Shown in pieces: positions 48,436-56,531 of a stretch of 64,000 nt of DNA (the stretch's first letter is position 1; each line of letters begins with the position of its first letter). The stretch is taken from assembly GCF_000714715.1 (NCBI RefSeq), contig NZ_JMFO01000012.1:1-64000 (forward strand). Direction: 5' to 3'. Under the pieces are notes generated by a model. That model was not told where the DNA came from and searched no databases. It worked only from the letters and a program-made list of their open reading frames with translations. The stretch comes from Candidatus Magnetobacterium casense. Its GTDB lineage: Bacteria > Nitrospirota > Thermodesulfovibrionia > Thermodesulfovibrionales > Magnetobacteriaceae. Made by a program: the position numbers and the translations under genes.

Positions 48436-48580
48436 TTAAAAGTAGGTAGTTCCGTAACTCATAACATTCTCCAAGTGCAATTGCCCTGTACACCTGAGTT
48501 TTGCTCTTGACTATTGCGGATGGTTGTGTCAACATAAAAGGTGAGTTACATACTATGAATCGGGTATTTTGCATGTAATT

Positions 48581-51500
48581 ATGAAAGCAACAGAGTGGAC
48601 TGTTGGTGATGTGTTGTTGGACCTCTATGAAATACGTGAGGTCTACAAGAGTGGCGGTATGGGGGTGGTCTACCGGATATTTCACAGGGGCTGGAATGTG
48701 GAATTAGCCATGAAAAGCCCGCGCCCCGAGTACTTTCAAAAGGAAGAGGACAAACGCAATTTTGAACGTGAAGCCGAAACGTGGATGGACCTCGGGCTGC
48801 ATCCCAACATCGTCAGTTGCTACTACATAAGACGTATTGATGACATTCCCCGTGTCTTTGCCGAATACCTTGGCGGAGGCAATCTGAGGGACCACATACG
48901 CAAACGTAAATTAACTACCCTGGAGGGTATCTTAGACATAGCAATCCAGTTTGCCACCGGTCTGCACTATGCCCACGAAAATGGCCTGGTGCATCAGGAC
49001 GTCAAACCGGCCAATGTCATGTTGTCCTATGACGGGATAGTCAAGGTGACGGACTTTGGACTTGCCAAGGCCAGGGCACTCACCGACACCAAGGCCATCG
49101 ATCAGGGCATCAACCGGGGGATGCTGGTCAGCTATGGCGGCATGACACCGGCCTACTGCTCCCCAGAGCAGGCAAGCTCCGCAGAGAGGTCAATGCCCAC
49201 ACTGTCACGGTCTGCACTGCCAAACCCTGCACAACAAACCATCGTTACGCCCACGACAAGTTCCTTACTGTTGGCGACCGACAAATCCCTGTCCACAAAG
49301 ACAGACATATGGTCATGGGGGGTGTCCATACTGGAGATATTCGTAGGGGGCATAAACTGGATGACCGGTAGCATTGCCGATATCGCACTGGATAACTACC
49401 TCCAGAATGGTCCCATGGACGATATCATACCCCGTATGCCCACGGAAATCGTAAGTCTGCTCAAACGCTGTCTCCAAAAGATGCCTGAAGATCGCCCCGC
49501 CTCCATGCTTGAGATCGTGGAGGAGTTAAGGCGCATATATCGTGATATCACCGGCAAGGCATATCCGCGTACCCAGTACCTGGCCGGTCGGGCAACCGCC
49601 GATGGTATCAACAACAGGGCAATCTCACTGCTTGACCTCAAAAAAACCAGCGGGATTGATGCCCTCTGGAAGGAGGCATTGAAGACCGACCCCCTGCACT
49701 TTGAATCCACATACAACCTGGCTCTGTATGAGTGGAAAAACGGCATGATTACGGAAAAAGATATCATTCGCAGGATAAAGGCGATAACGATCAAGCGTCA
49801 TATGAACTGGCGGGAGTGTCACATGTTGGGCAACCTGTACATGTTTTCGGGCAACTACTCAAAGGCGGTAGAGGAGCTGTGGAAGGCCGTAGAGTCGGAG
49901 CATCCCTCCGCCGCAGAGATAAAGGACCTGGTGTTGGCCCTCTGTGCAGAGGGCAGGGCCTTTACCGCAACGGCCAGTAGTAAGGTCCCCGCTGCCATTA
50001 CCCTGTGGAAGGATGTGGAGAGACAATGCCGCAGTATTATAGAGGACGTCCCCACTGGAACCGAAAAGACGCAGGAGCATCCCGAAACCGAAAAAACTAA
50101 GGAGCGTCCCGTAGCGGTAAAGAGCGCAGACCCCTACATAGTATCTGCCTGTACGCTGGCCCTGACCAGACAGGGCAGACAGAAGGAGGCCTATGAGTTT
50201 TATACCTCCTACAGAGAGAAATCACCGGGGATGCCTTCCTCTGCAGCGGAGGCGTTTCATCGCTATCTGCCCGGATTTGAGACCCTGCATACCATAGAGG
50301 AACACAACGGCATGGTCAGCTCCATTGCAATCACCCCCGATAGCAAGAGGGCAATCTCTGCCGGCAGCGATGACAAGACGGTGCGCGTATGGGACATCGA
50401 AGAGGGCAAATGCCTGACCACACTGTATGGACACACCGATTGGGTCACATGCGTGTGCGTAAGCTCCGATGGCAGATTTGCAGTATCGGGCAGCAACGAC
50501 AAGACCCTGCGGCTGTGGGATATCGGCTACAGTGTTGAAGGTACCACGGGCAGATGCGTGCGGGTTATCAGCAACTCTGCAAGGAATGGCTCATCAGAGG
50601 GTAACGACCCCGCAAGCAGGATAACGGCGGTGGCCGTTACACCCGACAGCAAGTACATCCTGGCCGGATTCAACGACGGGGCTTTGTTGTTGTTTAGCTT
50701 GATATCCGGTGTAAAACTGAGGAGTTACGATGGCCACAGGGGCAGGATTACATCCGTGGCAATTACCCCCGATGGCCTCTATGCCGTAAGCGGAAGCGCC
50801 GATACGACAGTGTCTCTGTACAACATCGTTACGGGCAAACTGCTGCGTACCTTCACCGGACATAGGGGTGGCGTGACTTCGGTTGCCATAAGCCCTTCAG
50901 GGACACTGCTCCTGACCGGCAGCGAGGACAAGGCCATGCGTCTGTACAATCTCGCAACGGCCCAGTGTGTGCATACCTTCAGAGGACACACGGGGGAGGT
51001 CTTATGTGTGGCATTCTCTGACGATCAGACCTTGGCCGTCTCCGGAAGCAAGGATGAGACCTTATGTCTGTGGGATATAAGAAGCCGTCAGCGGGTCTTT
51101 TTATTCAGGAGGTTTGAGGGGCCTGCCCTGGCAATCACGCCATCGGGCAGACGGGCGGTCTATAGCATATGGAATGGCATCAGGATCGTTGAGATCGCCA
51201 ATCACTATCCCCTATCATATGCCATCGCCATACCGGTTTCGTCGGTGGAGTCAGAGGAGCGCGAGGCGGCCTTCCGGAAAGAAATACAACGCGCAAGGGA
51301 CCTCATCAGGGCCAACAATATAAGAGAAGTCCCTGAAATTATTAAAAGGGCTCGTGATATAAAGGGCTATGAAAAAGACAGAGATGCCCTTGAGATAAAG
51401 GAACAGTTGGCGGCCTACTTCCCAAAAATGGAGCTGCTTGGCGCCTGGCAGCTTAACACCTGGGAACTCAACAATCCTGCCGGTCATACCGGTGGTGTCA

Positions 51501-54500
51501 ATGCCGTAGCGGTTACGCCCGATGACAGGTATGTCATTGCCGGGGCAGAGGATGGCTGCCTGTATATGTGGGAGCTTGACTCCGGCGAACTCAGCGGGGT
51601 GTTGGAGGGCCATAAGGACAGCGTTACAACGTTGGATATCAGTGCTAACGGCAGATATGTCATCTCCGGCTCCAAAGACAAGACGGTGCGCCTGTGGGAG
51701 CTACCGACGGGGCAGAATACTATTGCTCAGACGTTTTATGGCCATACGCTCTATGGTCATTCCGGCAGCATTAGTAAGGTGGTCTTTGGTACGGACCCTC
51801 ACTATGCACTCTCTCAGGACTATAAAGGCGTGCTACTGTTCTGGGACCTGGTCAACAGGGAGGCTGTACGGACATTATACGATAAAGAGGGTTGTACCGT
51901 AGCGGCCCTGCACCCTGACCTCAGATACGCAATCTCCGGAAGGGCTGACGGTGTCATCACCATATGGGATATCGCACTTGAGGAGCGGTATCGTACCTTT
52001 AAGATGTTAAACAAGAGCGTAACGGCTGTGGCAGTGAGCTCCGATGGCAGATTCATTCTGACGGGGGCACTCTACGACGGCACTCTCCAGTTGTGGGATT
52101 TCAGAAGTGGCAGGAACCTTCGCAGTTTTACCGGCCACACGGGCGGAATAACCACCGTCTGCTTCAGTGCCGATGTCAGGTACATATTGTCGGTGGGCGC
52201 TGATAAGACCATCCGCATCTGGGATATAGAGACGAGCAGGGAGGTGCGCAAGTTTACCTTGCACGGTGAAGACATAAACACGGCGGTGTTAAGTCCAAAC
52301 GGCTGGTTGGTTGTTACCGGCAGTAAGGACAGGACGTTAAGCTCGTTTTACCTGGACTGGGACATTGTCGCCCTCAACTATGAAGACTGGGACGACAGGG
52401 CGTTGCCTTATCTTGAGACCTTTTTGACCATGCATACGCCGCTTTCACAAAACACCCTGCTGCGACGGGGAATGCCACAGTACAGCGAAGAGGACTTTGA
52501 CTCACTGCTGAGGCAATTGAGCCTCAAAGGTTTTGGCTGGCTCACTCCGGAGGGGATCAGACAAAAGCTCGACTACCTCCGGAAAAACGCCGCCGATAAG
52601 TCCACCGAGTCAGAGAGAACATATAAAATGCTCATAGGTCTCAGTCTGGCCCTCATCCGGGAGGGCATTAAGGAAGGCGCCACTGACCACGACTCCAAGG
52701 TGGTGAGTGCACTGGAGACGATTAAAAAGGCACGTTCTATAAATGGCTATGCCAGAGATGAACAACTGTTGAGGATATATGACAAGATATCGGCCGTATT
52801 TCCGAAGAAGGACATTTCGGCGGCATGGAAGGTCAGATATTTTAAGAGCCACGAGGCGGCCATTAACACGCTGGCCGTCAGCCCCAACGGCAAGTATGCC
52901 ATCTCAGGCGGGGATGACAGAAACGTCTGTCTGTGGGATATAGCGTCCAGGACGCTTGTGAGGGGGTTTGCGGGACACACGGCAGAGGTCATGGCTGTGG
53001 CATTTATAGACGACAACCGTTTCCTTTCAGGCGGTGCAGACAAGACCCTCCGGATGTGGGATATCAAAAGCGGACAATGTTTGAGGGTCTTTAGTGAGCA
53101 CACGGAGGCAATATGCTCGCTCTGGGCAGACGGGGTCGGGCTGATAGCGGTCTGTGGCTGTATTGATGGCTCGGTCCGTGTGTGGGACATCGACGGTGGG
53201 GATATATTACGTATATACAAAAACCCCCCGGGTAGCGTAAACGCACTGGCAGTAAGCTCTAACCTCAAGATTATGCTAACGGGGGGCAAAGACAGAAAGC
53301 TCACCCTGTGGCAGTTGAGCACGGGAAAGCCTTTATGCGTTATGCAGGGACACTCTGATGCGATAACTGCCCTGGCCATAGCCCCCAACGGGATGTTTGC
53401 CGTATCGGGCAGCGAAGACAGGTCAGTGCGGAGCTGGAACCTCTCCACGGGTGAGGCAATGGACACATACGAAGGCCATAAATCCGGGGTAACTGCCGTC
53501 GATATAAGCCCCGATGGTACCTTTGTGGTATCGGCTGGAAGGGACAACAGGCTTTGTCTCTGGAGGCTGTCAAGCCAGGGACGCCCGGCAGCGGAAAAGA
53601 GCCGGGAGCATCCGGCAGCGGGAAGTAAGGATGAGTTTCGCACGCTCAAGGGGCACGATGACGCAGTGCTGGCTGTAAGGTTTACCCCTGATGCCTCTCA
53701 TCTTGTGTCGGCGGCAGTGGACAGGACGCTCTGTCTGTGGCATCTGCAGTGGCAGGAGGCCCTACAATCGATTAATGGGCCTGCCGATGCCGAGCAACAG
53801 TGCGGGAAATACATAGAAGACTTTCTCCTTCGCTACCGGCCACTGATGAAGGACTCTCTCACCAGAAAGGGCAAACCCCAGTGGGGTAAGGACGCCCTCA
53901 ACGGGTTTGTCATGGAGTTACGTTACCGGGGGCTTGGCTTGATACCGGTGCAGCAGGTTACGCAACGGCTGATGCGCCTTAGTGACGAGCAGGGACGCAA
54001 TGCCGGGGCGCTTGAAGCCGCATTTACGCAGTACATAGAGGGGGCGGGAGTATCGCTCAAGGACAGGGCTTATGCAAGGAGCCTGGGATTTGTATCAAAG
54101 GCCGTCGGCATCGAAGGGTACGCCAGGGACCCCAGGGCACTCAGTGCGATAGCAGAGTTGGCGGTTACACAACCCCGAAACAAGCTCAACTCGTTGTGGA
54201 AGCACAAGACCCTTCCGGTAAAGGGGGCAAGGGTCAGCGTGTTTATGTTCATGCCCCCGGGGGCATCCGGCAGCGGTAAAGAGCCGGGGCGTTATGCCCT
54301 GTGCACCGTTGCGGGCAGTGACAACACGACTGCGGTATACGATTTGCGGACTTGGCAGCCGCTGGTGGTGTTCAAGGGACATCAGGATACCGTAACTTCT
54401 GTGGGGGTTTCCTACGATGGCACGGTGGCCGTATCGGGCAGCAAGGACAAGACTCTGCGTCTGTGGGACGTTGCCACGGGGCAGTGTAGGGGCGTCCTTG

Positions 54501-55393
54501 AAGGGCACACGGGGGGGGTTAATGCCGTGGCCGTCACGGCAGATGGCAAGTACGTTGTCTCCGGCGGCGATGATGCCACTCTCAGACTGTGGGATGCCGC
54601 CGCAATGTCAAAGGTCAAGGTCTTTAAGAACAACGACCTCGCTGTCAAGGCCCTGAAGATAAGCCCCGATGAGTTGTATATTTTCTGTGGAAACTCAGAC
54701 GGCACGCTCAACTTTATGGATATAGCGTTAGGGCGCCTCATACACGCCTTCAGGGGACACGAGGGGGCTATAACGTCGCTCAGTGTCTCCCCCGGTGGTC
54801 GCCATGTGATCTCCGGTGGAACCGATGCCACAATCCGGTTGTGGGACATTCCAACGGGTGAGTGTTTTCGCACCTTTACCGGGCATGTCGGGGCCGTTAC
54901 GACGGTGGCCGTCACACCTAATGGCCGATATCTGATCTCAGGCGGTGTTGACAAGACCGTGCGGATATGGGACATACCCTCTGCCCAAGTCTTTGACACC
55001 ATACAGTGGCATGCCGCAGAGGTGTGCTGTGTTGCCGTCAGTGGGGATGGCACGTATATGTTTTCCGGGGGGCAGGACCCCTTTGCATACCTGTGGTACC
55101 TCAACTGGCACCTGATGCTCAGACCCATTACCCAATGGGACGATGGCGCCAGGGCATTTCTGGAGGCATTTATCTGTATGCGCACGGCAAAGCTTGGCAC
55201 CCACTCCGTCTTTGCCAGGAAGCCGCAGTGGTCGGAGGATGACTTCAACGCCCTCCTGCAGACCCTCGCACACGCAGGCTACGGATGGCTGGCACCACAG
55301 GGCATAAGAGACAAACTCCAGGAAATGGCCGATAAATGGAAAACCGTCCTGGCAGGAAAAAAGAAGTTCTTTGAAAAACAGTTCAGGTCATAG
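48581..55393 (+). CDS. Giant Ser/Thr protein kinase with four seven-bladed WD40 propellers
   Basis: The protein has 2270 residues. A Hanks-type kinase (about 10-310) shows the Gly loop SGGMGVVYR, Lys in LAMKSPRP, the catalytic loop HQDVKPANV (Gln in place of the Arg of HRD), DFG near 161 and TPAYCSPEQ. A helical stretch (about 310-560) follows. Then come four WD40 blocks of seven blades each (about 50278-51210, 51480-52360, 52850-53750, 54210-55110), with typical GH...V..SPDG...SGS.D.T.RLWD units. Blocks 2-4 are each preceded by a helical unit with the motif GYxRD and followed by a unit ending near GFGWL/GYGWL. No membrane segment is seen; it is a cytoplasmic scaffold kinase. ATG 48581 is chosen over TTG 48569; neither has a clear ribosome-binding site. 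Confidence 0.92.
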   Translation: MKATEWTVGDVLLDLYEIREVYKSGGMGVVYRIFHRGWNVELAMKSPRPEYFQKEEDKRNFEREAETWMDLGLHPNIVSCYYIRRIDDIPRVFAEYLGGGNLRDHIRKRKLTTLEGILDIAIQFATGLHYAHENGLVHQDVKPANVMLSYDGIVKVTDFGLAKARALTDTKAIDQGINRGMLVSYGGMTPAYCSPEQASSAERSMPTLSRSALPNPAQQTIVTPTTSSLLLATDKSLSTKTDIWSWGVSILEIFVGGINWMTGSIADIALDNYLQNGPMDDIIPRMPTEIVSLLKRCLQKMPEDRPASMLEIVEELRRIYRDITGKAYPRTQYLAGRATADGINNRAISLLDLKKTSGIDALWKEALKTDPLHFESTYNLALYEWKNGMITEKDIIRRIKAITIKRHMNWRECHMLGNLYMFSGNYSKAVEELWKAVESEHPSAAEIKDLVLALCAEGRAFTATASSKVPAAITLWKDVERQCRSIIEDVPTGTEKTQEHPETEKTKERPVAVKSADPYIVSACTLALTRQGRQKEAYEFYTSYREKSPGMPSSAAEAFHRYLPGFETLHTIEEHNGMVSSIAITPDSKRAISAGSDDKTVRVWDIEEGKCLTTLYGHTDWVTCVCVSSDGRFAVSGSNDKTLRLWDIGYSVEGTTGRCVRVISNSARNGSSEGNDPASRITAVAVTPDSKYILAGFNDGALLLFSLISGVKLRSYDGHRGRITSVAITPDGLYAVSGSADTTVSLYNIVTGKLLRTFTGHRGGVTSVAISPSGTLLLTGSEDKAMRLYNLATAQCVHTFRGHTGEVLCVAFSDDQTLAVSGSKDETLCLWDIRSRQRVFLFRRFEGPALAITPSGRRAVYSIWNGIRIVEIANHYPLSYAIAIPVSSVESEEREAAFRKEIQRARDLIRANNIREVPEIIKRARDIKGYEKDRDALEIKEQLAAYFPKMELLGAWQLNTWELNNPAGHTGGVNAVAVTPDDRYVIAGAEDGCLYMWELDSGELSGVLEGHKDSVTTLDISANGRYVISGSKDKTVRLWELPTGQNTIAQTFYGHTLYGHSGSISKVVFGTDPHYALSQDYKGVLLFWDLVNREAVRTLYDKEGCTVAALHPDLRYAISGRADGVITIWDIALEERYRTFKMLNKSVTAVAVSSDGRFILTGALYDGTLQLWDFRSGRNLRSFTGHTGGITTVCFSADVRYILSVGADKTIRIWDIETSREVRKFTLHGEDINTAVLSPNGWLVVTGSKDRTLSSFYLDWDIVALNYEDWDDRALPYLETFLTMHTPLSQNTLLRRGMPQYSEEDFDSLLRQLSLKGFGWLTPEGIRQKLDYLRKNAADKSTESERTYKMLIGLSLALIREGIKEGATDHDSKVVSALETIKKARSINGYARDEQLLRIYDKISAVFPKKDISAAWKVRYFKSHEAAINTLAVSPNGKYAISGGDDRNVCLWDIASRTLVRGFAGHTAEVMAVAFIDDNRFLSGGADKTLRMWDIKSGQCLRVFSEHTEAICSLWADGVGLIAVCGCIDGSVRVWDIDGGDILRIYKNPPGSVNALAVSSNLKIMLTGGKDRKLTLWQLSTGKPLCVMQGHSDAITALAIAPNGMFAVSGSEDRSVRSWNLSTGEAMDTYEGHKSGVTAVDISPDGTFVVSAGRDNRLCLWRLSSQGRPAAEKSREHPAAGSKDEFRTLKGHDDAVLAVRFTPDASHLVSAAVDRTLCLWHLQWQEALQSINGPADAEQQCGKYIEDFLLRYRPLMKDSLTRKGKPQWGKDALNGFVMELRYRGLGLIPVQQVTQRLMRLSDEQGRNAGALEAAFTQYIEGAGVSLKDRAYARSLGFVSKAVGIEGYARDPRALSAIAELAVTQPRNKLNSLWKHKTLPVKGARVSVFMFMPPGASGSGKEPGRYALCTVAGSDNTTAVYDLRTWQPLVVFKGHQDTVTSVGVSYDGTVAVSGSKDKTLRLWDVATGQCRGVLEGHTGGVNAVAVTADGKYVVSGGDDATLRLWDAAAMSKVKVFKNNDLAVKALKISPDELYIFCGNSDGTLNFMDIALGRLIHAFRGHEGAITSLSVSPGGRHVISGGTDATIRLWDIPTGECFRTFTGHVGAVTTVAVTPNGRYLISGGVDKTVRIWDIPSAQVFDTIQWHAAEVCCVAVSGDGTYMFSGGQDPFAYLWYLNWHLMLRPITQWDDGARAFLEAFICMRTAKLGTHSVFARKPQWSEDDFNALLQTLAHAGYGWLAPQGIRDKLQEMADKWKTVLAGKKKFFEKQFRS

Positions 55394-55417: not shown

Positions 55418-55663
55418 TTACCGCAATTCTAAAAGCAACTTTATCTCGTCATCTGTAAATCCAAGCTGTCGCATTATTCGCAGAGTATAATAAGGAGAAA
55501 GTTCTTTAGCACCCATATCTATCAGAACAACTCTTTTTCCTCCCTTAAAATAGCGAACATAAATACTATGGTCTCCTTTACCTTCCCTATAATAAGCACA
55601 TCCACCTCTTTCTAAAATACGGATTAGTTCTCTTGGCTTAAGTGATGGGAAATTCTTAAGCAT
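55418..55663 (-). CDS. hicA: HicA-family mRNA interferase toxin
   Basis: The protein has 81 residues, double-stranded RNA-binding-like fold. SLKPRELIRILERGGC and YYREGKGDHSIYVRY carry the core; the catalytic His is in GDHSIY (usually GSHHIY). The tail RQLGFTDDEIKLLLELR is longer than in many HicA proteins. It overlaps its hicB by 40 bases and is downstream of it, an arrangement opposite to the classical hicA-hicB order but common. Confidence 0.85.
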   Translation of the reverse strand: MLKNFPSLKPRELIRILERGGCAYYREGKGDHSIYVRYFKGGKRVVLIDMGAKELSPYYTLRIMRQLGFTDDEIKLLLELR

Positions 55664-55923
55664 ATACCTTTTTTTAATTCATATGCTTCTTCGATAACTG
55701 TATCAGTTTCAAAAGATAGAAACTCATGTAGTTCACTTATATGTAAAGGCTCATTATAGATATATTGTTCGGATTTTAAGATATCGTCAAATGACTCGAC
55801 CGCCTCTTTAAGCTTCTCTAAAGCAGTATCTTTAGTATTCCCCTGTCCTACTAGTCCATTTTCAAGACAAAGAGCTACCCAATAATTTCCGCTTTTTCGT
55901 AAAACTGCTGTGTAAAAATCCAT
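55624..55923 (-). CDS. hicB: HicB-family antitoxin
   Basis: The 99-residue protein has the partial RNase H-like HicB fold: FYTAVLRKSGNYWVALCLENGLVGQGNTKDTALEKLKEAVE. This variant has no clear C-terminal ribbon-helix-helix or HTH domain, so DNA binding would need a partner or the HicA complex. ATG 55923 is eight bases from AGGAGG; GTG 55932 lies in that site. It faces the second HicAB pair across a shared region. Confidence 0.82.
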   Translation of the reverse strand: MDFYTAVLRKSGNYWVALCLENGLVGQGNTKDTALEKLKEAVESFDDILKSEQYIYNEPLHISELHEFLSFETDTVIEEAYELKKGICLRISHHLSQEN

Positions 55924-56014
55924 TAATCTCACCTCCTATGCATGATACAAACAGTATGGAATGTTTACTCCCTTTTGTGTCCATAAAAAAATACTCCCGT
56001 TATGTTATGATAAG

Positions 56015-56082: not shown

Positions 56083-56307
56083 ATGGCACGGATATTTAAA
56101 GTGATCATTATGTATGATCATGAATATGAGGGATATGTTGTAGATGTCCCTGAGCTTGTAGGGTGTATGAGTCAGGGCAAGACTATGGATGAAGCCCTGG
56201 CCAATATAAAGGATGCTATCAGGGGATGGTTGTATGTAGAAGAAAGTCATGGAAGGTTGGATATTCCAGAAAGAACAGAGGTGTTTTTAGGGGAAGTAAC
56301 GATCTGA
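56083..56307 (+). CDS. hicB: HicB-family antitoxin, second pair
   Basis: This 74-residue short HicB has only the RNase H-like domain: IFKVIIMYDHEYEGYVVDVPELVGCMSQGKTMDEALANIKDAI. AAGGAG precedes ATG 56083. It ends five bases before its hicA. It is not closely similar to the hicB at 55624, so the pairs are of separate origin. Confidence 0.87.
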   Translation: MARIFKVIIMYDHEYEGYVVDVPELVGCMSQGKTMDEALANIKDAIRGWLYVEESHGRLDIPERTEVFLGEVTI

Positions 56308-56312
56308 AAGAT

Positions 56313-56531
56313 ATGGGAATACTTTCCAACATGTCGGGCAGAGATATTGTTAAGGTCTTTAAGGAGTTTGGGTATACAGAGGATCATCAAACCGGAAGCC
56401 ATGTGATACTATACCATGACACAAGGGCAACATTATCAGTTCCAAATCATAGAGAAATAGCGCCAGGTTTACTGAGGGGATTAATAAGAAAAAGCGGAAT
56501 AAGTGTTGATGATTTTATGAAGGCCAGGTAA
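56313..56531 (+). CDS. hicA: HicA-family toxin, second pair
   Basis: The 72-residue HicA has the complete core: SGRDIVKVFKEFGYTEDHQTGSHVILYH with catalytic His in GSHVIL, VPNHREIAPGLLRGLIRKSGISVDDF. The open frame reaches 56226, but ATG 56313 is the normal start. The order hicB-hicA matches the facing pair. Confidence 0.88.
   Translation: MGILSNMSGRDIVKVFKEFGYTEDHQTGSHVILYHDTRATLSVPNHREIAPGLLRGLIRKSGISVDDFMKAR

Follow-up and report, generated by a model that had tools for sequence, protein, structure and literature searches.

A predicted four-propeller WD40 kinase of Candidatus Magnetobacterium casense, most likely enlarged by an old tripling of one propeller cassette

How did a bacterial protein kinase come to carry four WD40 propellers, and what might it use them for? 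The question is raised by one gene in the window, that is, the whole 64,000-nucleotide stretch of Candidatus Magnetobacterium casense contig NZ_JMFO01000012.1 that was analysed. Its reading frame is open on the forward strand from a TTG at 48569 to 55393 and encodes 2274 residues from that codon, or 2270 from the ATG at 48581, the likely start of the gene (48581–55393, about 2270 residues by ORF reading); all residue numbers of this protein are counted from TTG 48569. The protein begins with a Hanks-type Ser/Thr kinase domain (aa 13–330, 48605–49558), followed by a TPR-like helical region (aa 331–570, 49559–50278) and then by 28 WD40 units in four blocks of seven. Writing K for the kinase, P for a propeller, H for a helical unit and E for an end unit, its formula is K-P-(H-P-E)x3.

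Using an iterated WD40 profile, we obtained exactly 28 units (blocks 1–7, 8–14, 15–21 and 22–28), in agreement with the preliminary description, which had counted seven blades in each of four blocks; Pfam WD40 alone finds 23. The profile was seeded with the strong units of this protein and rerun on the same protein, a lenient way of recruiting, and the lowest-scoring units are no. 7 (aa 853–864, 2.0 bits) and no. 22 (aa 1907–1925, 7.2 bits), so we took structure models, as had been proposed earlier, as an independent test. Two AlphaFold2 models cover aa 558–1345 (36 sequences, pLDDT 88.9, pTM 0.60) and aa 1255–2262 (8 sequences, pLDDT 81.7, pTM 0.61). As counted from the strands listed for the models, and excluding a short strand before P4 and another after it, 28 strands are found in each of P1 (units 1–7, aa 571–875, 50279–51193), P2 (units 8–14, aa 963–1262, 51455–52354), P3 (units 15–21, aa 1424–1726, 52838–53746) and P4 (units 22–28, aa 1881–2178, 54209–55102). 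In all four the first strand is drawn from residues immediately ahead of the first full WD40 unit (velcro closure), and for P2 this strand is supplied by the tail of H2; the first blade of P4 includes a low-confidence loop. The models thus predict four closed seven-bladed propellers of four-stranded blades, while the relative placement of the domains is uncertain in both at these pTM values.

P2, P3 and P4 are each preceded by a helical unit and followed by an end unit, all of them delimited by leave-one-out profiles together with the models. The helical units are H2 (aa 892–962, 51242–51454), H3 (aa 1346–1423, 52604–52837) and H4 (aa 1809–1880, 53993–54208), and the end units are E2 (aa 1263–1345, 52355–52603), E3 (aa 1727–1808, 53747–53992) and E4 (aa 2179–2256, 55103–55336). 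The positions proposed for them in the preliminary description hold; its motifs hold in part. The GYxRD motif that it gave for the helical units is found as GYARD in H3 and H4, but H2 reads GYEKD, and the GFGWL/GYGWL motif of the end units is present in E2 (GFGWL) and E4 (GYGWL), but not in the diverged E3, which reads GLGLI. When a profile was made from two copies and the third was searched for in the window protein, it was found at 50.4, 21.9 and 45.1 bits for E and at 28.5, 34.3 and 11.8 bits for H. These profiles confirm, at the level of sequence, that the three E copies are homologous to one another and the three H copies likewise, as a duplicated cassette would have it. The earlier view that neither linker matches a nameable domain stands for E, which has no match in Pfam or in PDB chains and none in NCBIfam apart from one chance hit; it does not quite stand for H, which is weakly TPR-like (best E-values 0.014 in Pfam and 0.0045 in PDB).

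The models give E three helices, and H a helical hairpin with one further helix. In the second model the helix that ends E2 is continuous with the first helix of H3 (aa 1327–1367), and the one that ends E3 with the first helix of H4 (aa 1794–1831), so each E-H pair would form a helical coupling between successive propellers. There is no end unit behind P1, and the cassette is accordingly read as H-propeller-E.

We then asked how widely these units occur. According to searches of public genomes, E-bearing proteins are found in Chloroflexota, Cyanobacteriota, Planctomycetota, Verrucomicrobiota, Hydrogenedentota, Lentisphaerota, Actinomycetota, Myxococcota, Acidobacteriota, Elusimicrobiota, Ignavibacteriota, Thermodesulfobacteriota and Nitrospirota, with phyla taken from tree labels or record titles and many of the records being MAGs. 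E lies directly behind a WD40 blade in 95 of 99 E units (at a spacing of 3 residues in 62 of those 95), and H lies directly ahead of a blade in 80 units, mostly 3–7 residues away. E is a small conserved cap domain of ~75 residues that is absent from Pfam and NCBIfam, and H and E belong to the regular equipment of a widespread kinase family, not to the window protein in particular. The commonest complete architecture is K-P-H-P-E (kinase, seven blades, H, seven blades, E; about 1250 aa), which spans at least 12 bacterial phyla. E is sparse when whole phyla are sampled: it was found in 8 of 296 sampled Nitrospirota genomes, all within the family of the window's genome, and in few members of the phyla to which a Ktedonobacter genome (2/201), a Moorena genome (4/292) and a planctomycete genome (8/294) belong. 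Six cyanobacterial E-bearing proteins (L064, L069, L067, L071, L075 and L082) carry, behind the end unit, another kinase-like domain that is degenerate; with the catalytic HRD and DFG motifs altered in most of the six, this domain could be a pseudokinase.

The window protein shares with the K-P-H-P-E kinases the kinase type, an HQD motif, the H and E units and the order of propellers, each cassette having H directly ahead of its propeller's first blade and E directly behind the last. It differs in having three cassettes and 28 blades instead of one cassette and 14 blades, and we therefore class it as a variant of this family. The one-cassette form is also present in the same genome, as a paralogue of 1277 aa and 14 blades on contig C3. 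One-cassette paralogues of the Nitrospirota family (L010, L024–L026) have an N-terminal CxxC...CxxC zinc-ribbon-like segment, which the three-cassette protein lacks. Elsewhere in the genome (C7:64000-79000, L011), two more WD40 proteins of 672 and 1102 aa, with 13 and 15 units, are encoded close together.

A two-cassette protein of 1871 aa was found in a planctomycete (kinase - 7 - H - 7 - E - H - 6 detected blades - E), and the three-cassette form was seen in one Nitrospirota family only (Magnetobacteriaceae, the magnetotactic group), in four of its seven genera. Same-genus and same-family orthologues of the window protein are from 'Nitrospirae bacterium nDJH13bin1', Candidatus Magnetominusculus xianensis and Candidatus Magnetomicrobium cryptolimnococcus; the three-cassette form was found neither in the four genomes sampled from a fifth genus, of which one is a single-contig assembly, nor in the one genome sampled from each of two more genera. 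Two orthologues, L033 (genome G001) and L037 (genome G013), are broken into two or three frames, either because the draft assemblies contain frameshifts or because the genes have decayed.

In the kinase tree the three-cassette proteins fall into a single clade (100). When their cassettes are numbered C2–C4 after the propellers P2–P4, the C2 cassettes form one clade (97), seven of eight C4 cassettes form another (99), and the C3 cassettes are split without strong support, all values being SH-aLRT supports from quick tree searches. With one kinase clade and cassettes grouping largely by position, the triplication is most likely older than the split between the three-cassette genera. The cassettes of the window protein are 27–33% identical to each other, which together with the grouping by position led us to reject a recent duplication. 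An origin from the family's own short paralogue is unsupported, since the cassettes and kinases of the three-cassette proteins group apart from it. The cassette duplication suggested in the preliminary description is thus backed by the homology of the linkers, by the one- and two-cassette forms and by a tree that sorts cassettes mainly by position. The ancestral form was probably kinase - TPR-like region - propeller - H - propeller - E, and the four seven-bladed propellers would result from tripling of the H-propeller-E block of this widespread design before the family diversified.

What the enlarged protein does can be outlined as follows. Our main reading, to which we give a rough probability of 0.6, is that cassette tripling enlarged the C-terminal docking platform of a soluble Hanks-type Ser/Thr kinase. 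Hydropathy analysis of the window protein finds no segment resembling a membrane helix (the top 19-residue mean is 1.89, within a propeller), and the kinase is presumably soluble and cytosolic. H leads into the first blade of a propeller and E caps its last blade; in the ancestor of the Nitrospirota family this block was most likely tripled, after which the copies diverged, each in its own position. The four propellers may bind protein partners or substrates, with the E-H couplings fixing their spacing, and binding may deliver substrates to the N-terminal kinase or lift its inhibition. Identity to proteins of other genera is 61–63% for the kinase, 37–46% for P1 and 24–37% for P2–P4, so the outer propellers are the least conserved, as expected if P2–P4 bind changing partners; we infer activity, partners and regulation alike. 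A broader proposal, which we put forward tentatively and at slightly less than even odds, is that E and H make up a dedicated and as yet unnamed coupling set that serves the WD40 propellers of bacterial kinases: E would cap the last blade, its final helix would fuse with the next H, and cassettes would be added like beads to give rigid multi-propeller signalling scaffolds, which would have happened at least twice (two-cassette Planctomycetota and three-cassette magnetotactic-type Nitrospirota).

The fast divergence of the propellers would also suit ligand sensors, and an autoinhibited, Apaf-1-like sensor is the alternative that survives best, although we consider it rather unlikely. Here the propellers would clamp the kinase until a ligand bound between them freed it to signal, possibly by oligomerising. 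Apaf-1 is among the best solved Foldseek matches of the P1-H-P2-E model, and the window kinase is non-RD; non-RD kinases are often controlled by other means. However, such matches (TM 0.42, rmsd 10 A) come with any tandem WD40 protein, the top solved structures for our models being tandem WD40 proteins generally (2YMU, SSU-processome propellers, Apaf-1), and the window protein has no oligomerisation NTPase.

The genomic neighborhood bears on a signalling role and on a second alternative, defence. Upstream of the kinase gene are PhaE and PhaC; downstream are two HicA-bearing pairs identified with Pfam HicA_toxin (window positions 55418–55932 on the reverse strand, and 56083–56531 on the forward strand, the latter including a HicB-like antitoxin), and beyond these a GGDEF response regulator and a chemoreceptor. 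The kinase gene of the same-genus orthologue is flanked on one side by a histidine kinase/response regulator pair and on the other, after about 72 bases, by this GGDEF regulator, and a hybrid histidine kinase adjoins the kinase gene in three other orthologues. A conserved gene cluster was rejected, as the neighbors vary from one orthologue to the next and the two-component genes, though frequent, include no constant partner. The one-cassette paralogue is found in two genomes (L044:3905-11022 and L051:5704-12747) behind genes for an FHA-kinase and a PP2C-FHA phosphatase, a setting that supports a signalling role for the family. The adjacent HicA pairs, together with matches of PADLOC profiles of kinase defence proteins, would fit a defence or conflict system, with the propellers recognising an invader and the kinase raising the alarm. 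We find this highly improbable: the PADLOC matches cover no more than the generic portions (kinase and WD40), HicAB pairs are common as mobile genes and missing at the same-genus orthologue's locus, and searches for E found none in phages and hardly any in plasmids. Comparison with known anti-phage systems gave neither a full-length match nor conserved defence neighbors.

The kinase domain was identified by its Pfam Pkinase match (1e-36) and a residue check; the glycine loop, the VAIK Lys (Lys49), the alpha-C Glu (Glu68), Asp144, Lys146, Asn149 and the DFG Asp (Asp162) are all present. HQD replaces HRD (Q143), so the Gln noted earlier at this position was read correctly, and it is the usual state of the family: 37 of 52 family kinases have Gln in place of the HRD Arg and 10 of 52 have Arg, as compared to an HRD Arg in 73.8% of cyanobacterial kinases overall (PMC2176072). 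We found no account of an HQD motif in bacterial kinases in the literature searched. With HQD usual in the family and the catalytic residues intact, the motif is no sign of a pseudokinase; it suggests an activity independent of the usual activation-loop phosphorylation. An in-frame 34-aa insert (aa 206–239, 49184–49285, forward strand) lies between the SPE motif and helix F; it is missing from all relatives compared, is private to the window copy and could impair the kinase. A mobile repeat was rejected, with no second copy of the insert among four genomes of the genus. A catalytically dead scaffold with the propellers as a mere platform, to which the Gln and the insert near the activation segment might point, is the least probable of the alternatives given the intact residues and the commonness of HQD.

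Kinase-WD40 fusions and 14-repeat WD40 proteins are already known in bacteria (PMC5587647, PMC6113231, PMC2176072, PMC11032199), the latter being frequent in prokaryotes (PMC5587647). PkwA of Thermomonospora curvata (PDB 5yzv, PMC6113231) matches in sequence and shares the N-terminal Hanks-type kinase and a C-terminal seven-bladed WD40 propeller, but has one propeller instead of four. Npun_R6612 (PDB 2YMU), the best Foldseek and phmmer match, has two seven-bladed propellers per chain; its blades are highly repetitive, whereas the blades and cassettes of the window protein are strongly diverged. WD40 kinases of Cyanobacteria and Planctomycetota (PMC2176072, PMC11032199) likewise combine a Hanks-type kinase with tandem WD40 units in lineage-specific expansions. 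Those of Uabimicrobium are mostly membrane-spanning, with periplasmic repeats in arrays of up to 19 units, whereas the window protein has 28 units in four propellers and no evident membrane segment; hydropathy gives no sign in it of the transmembrane helix that separates kinase and WD40 part in the planctomycete membrane-spanning type. No description of the E units, the H units or the 28-blade form, and no relevant account of magnetotactic WD40 kinases, was found in the literature searched, most subscription papers being outside its reach.

The series of one, two and three cassettes illustrates step-wise growth of a scaffold in which a whole propeller is duplicated together with its fittings, instead of single blades, and it uncovers the cap domain E in kinases of many phyla. 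HQD as the usual state marks a set of bacterial kinases in which control may be exerted by propeller binding and not by phosphorylation of the activation loop. The magnetotactic-type Nitrospirota gain a protein not described in the literature searched, namely a conserved large signalling protein.
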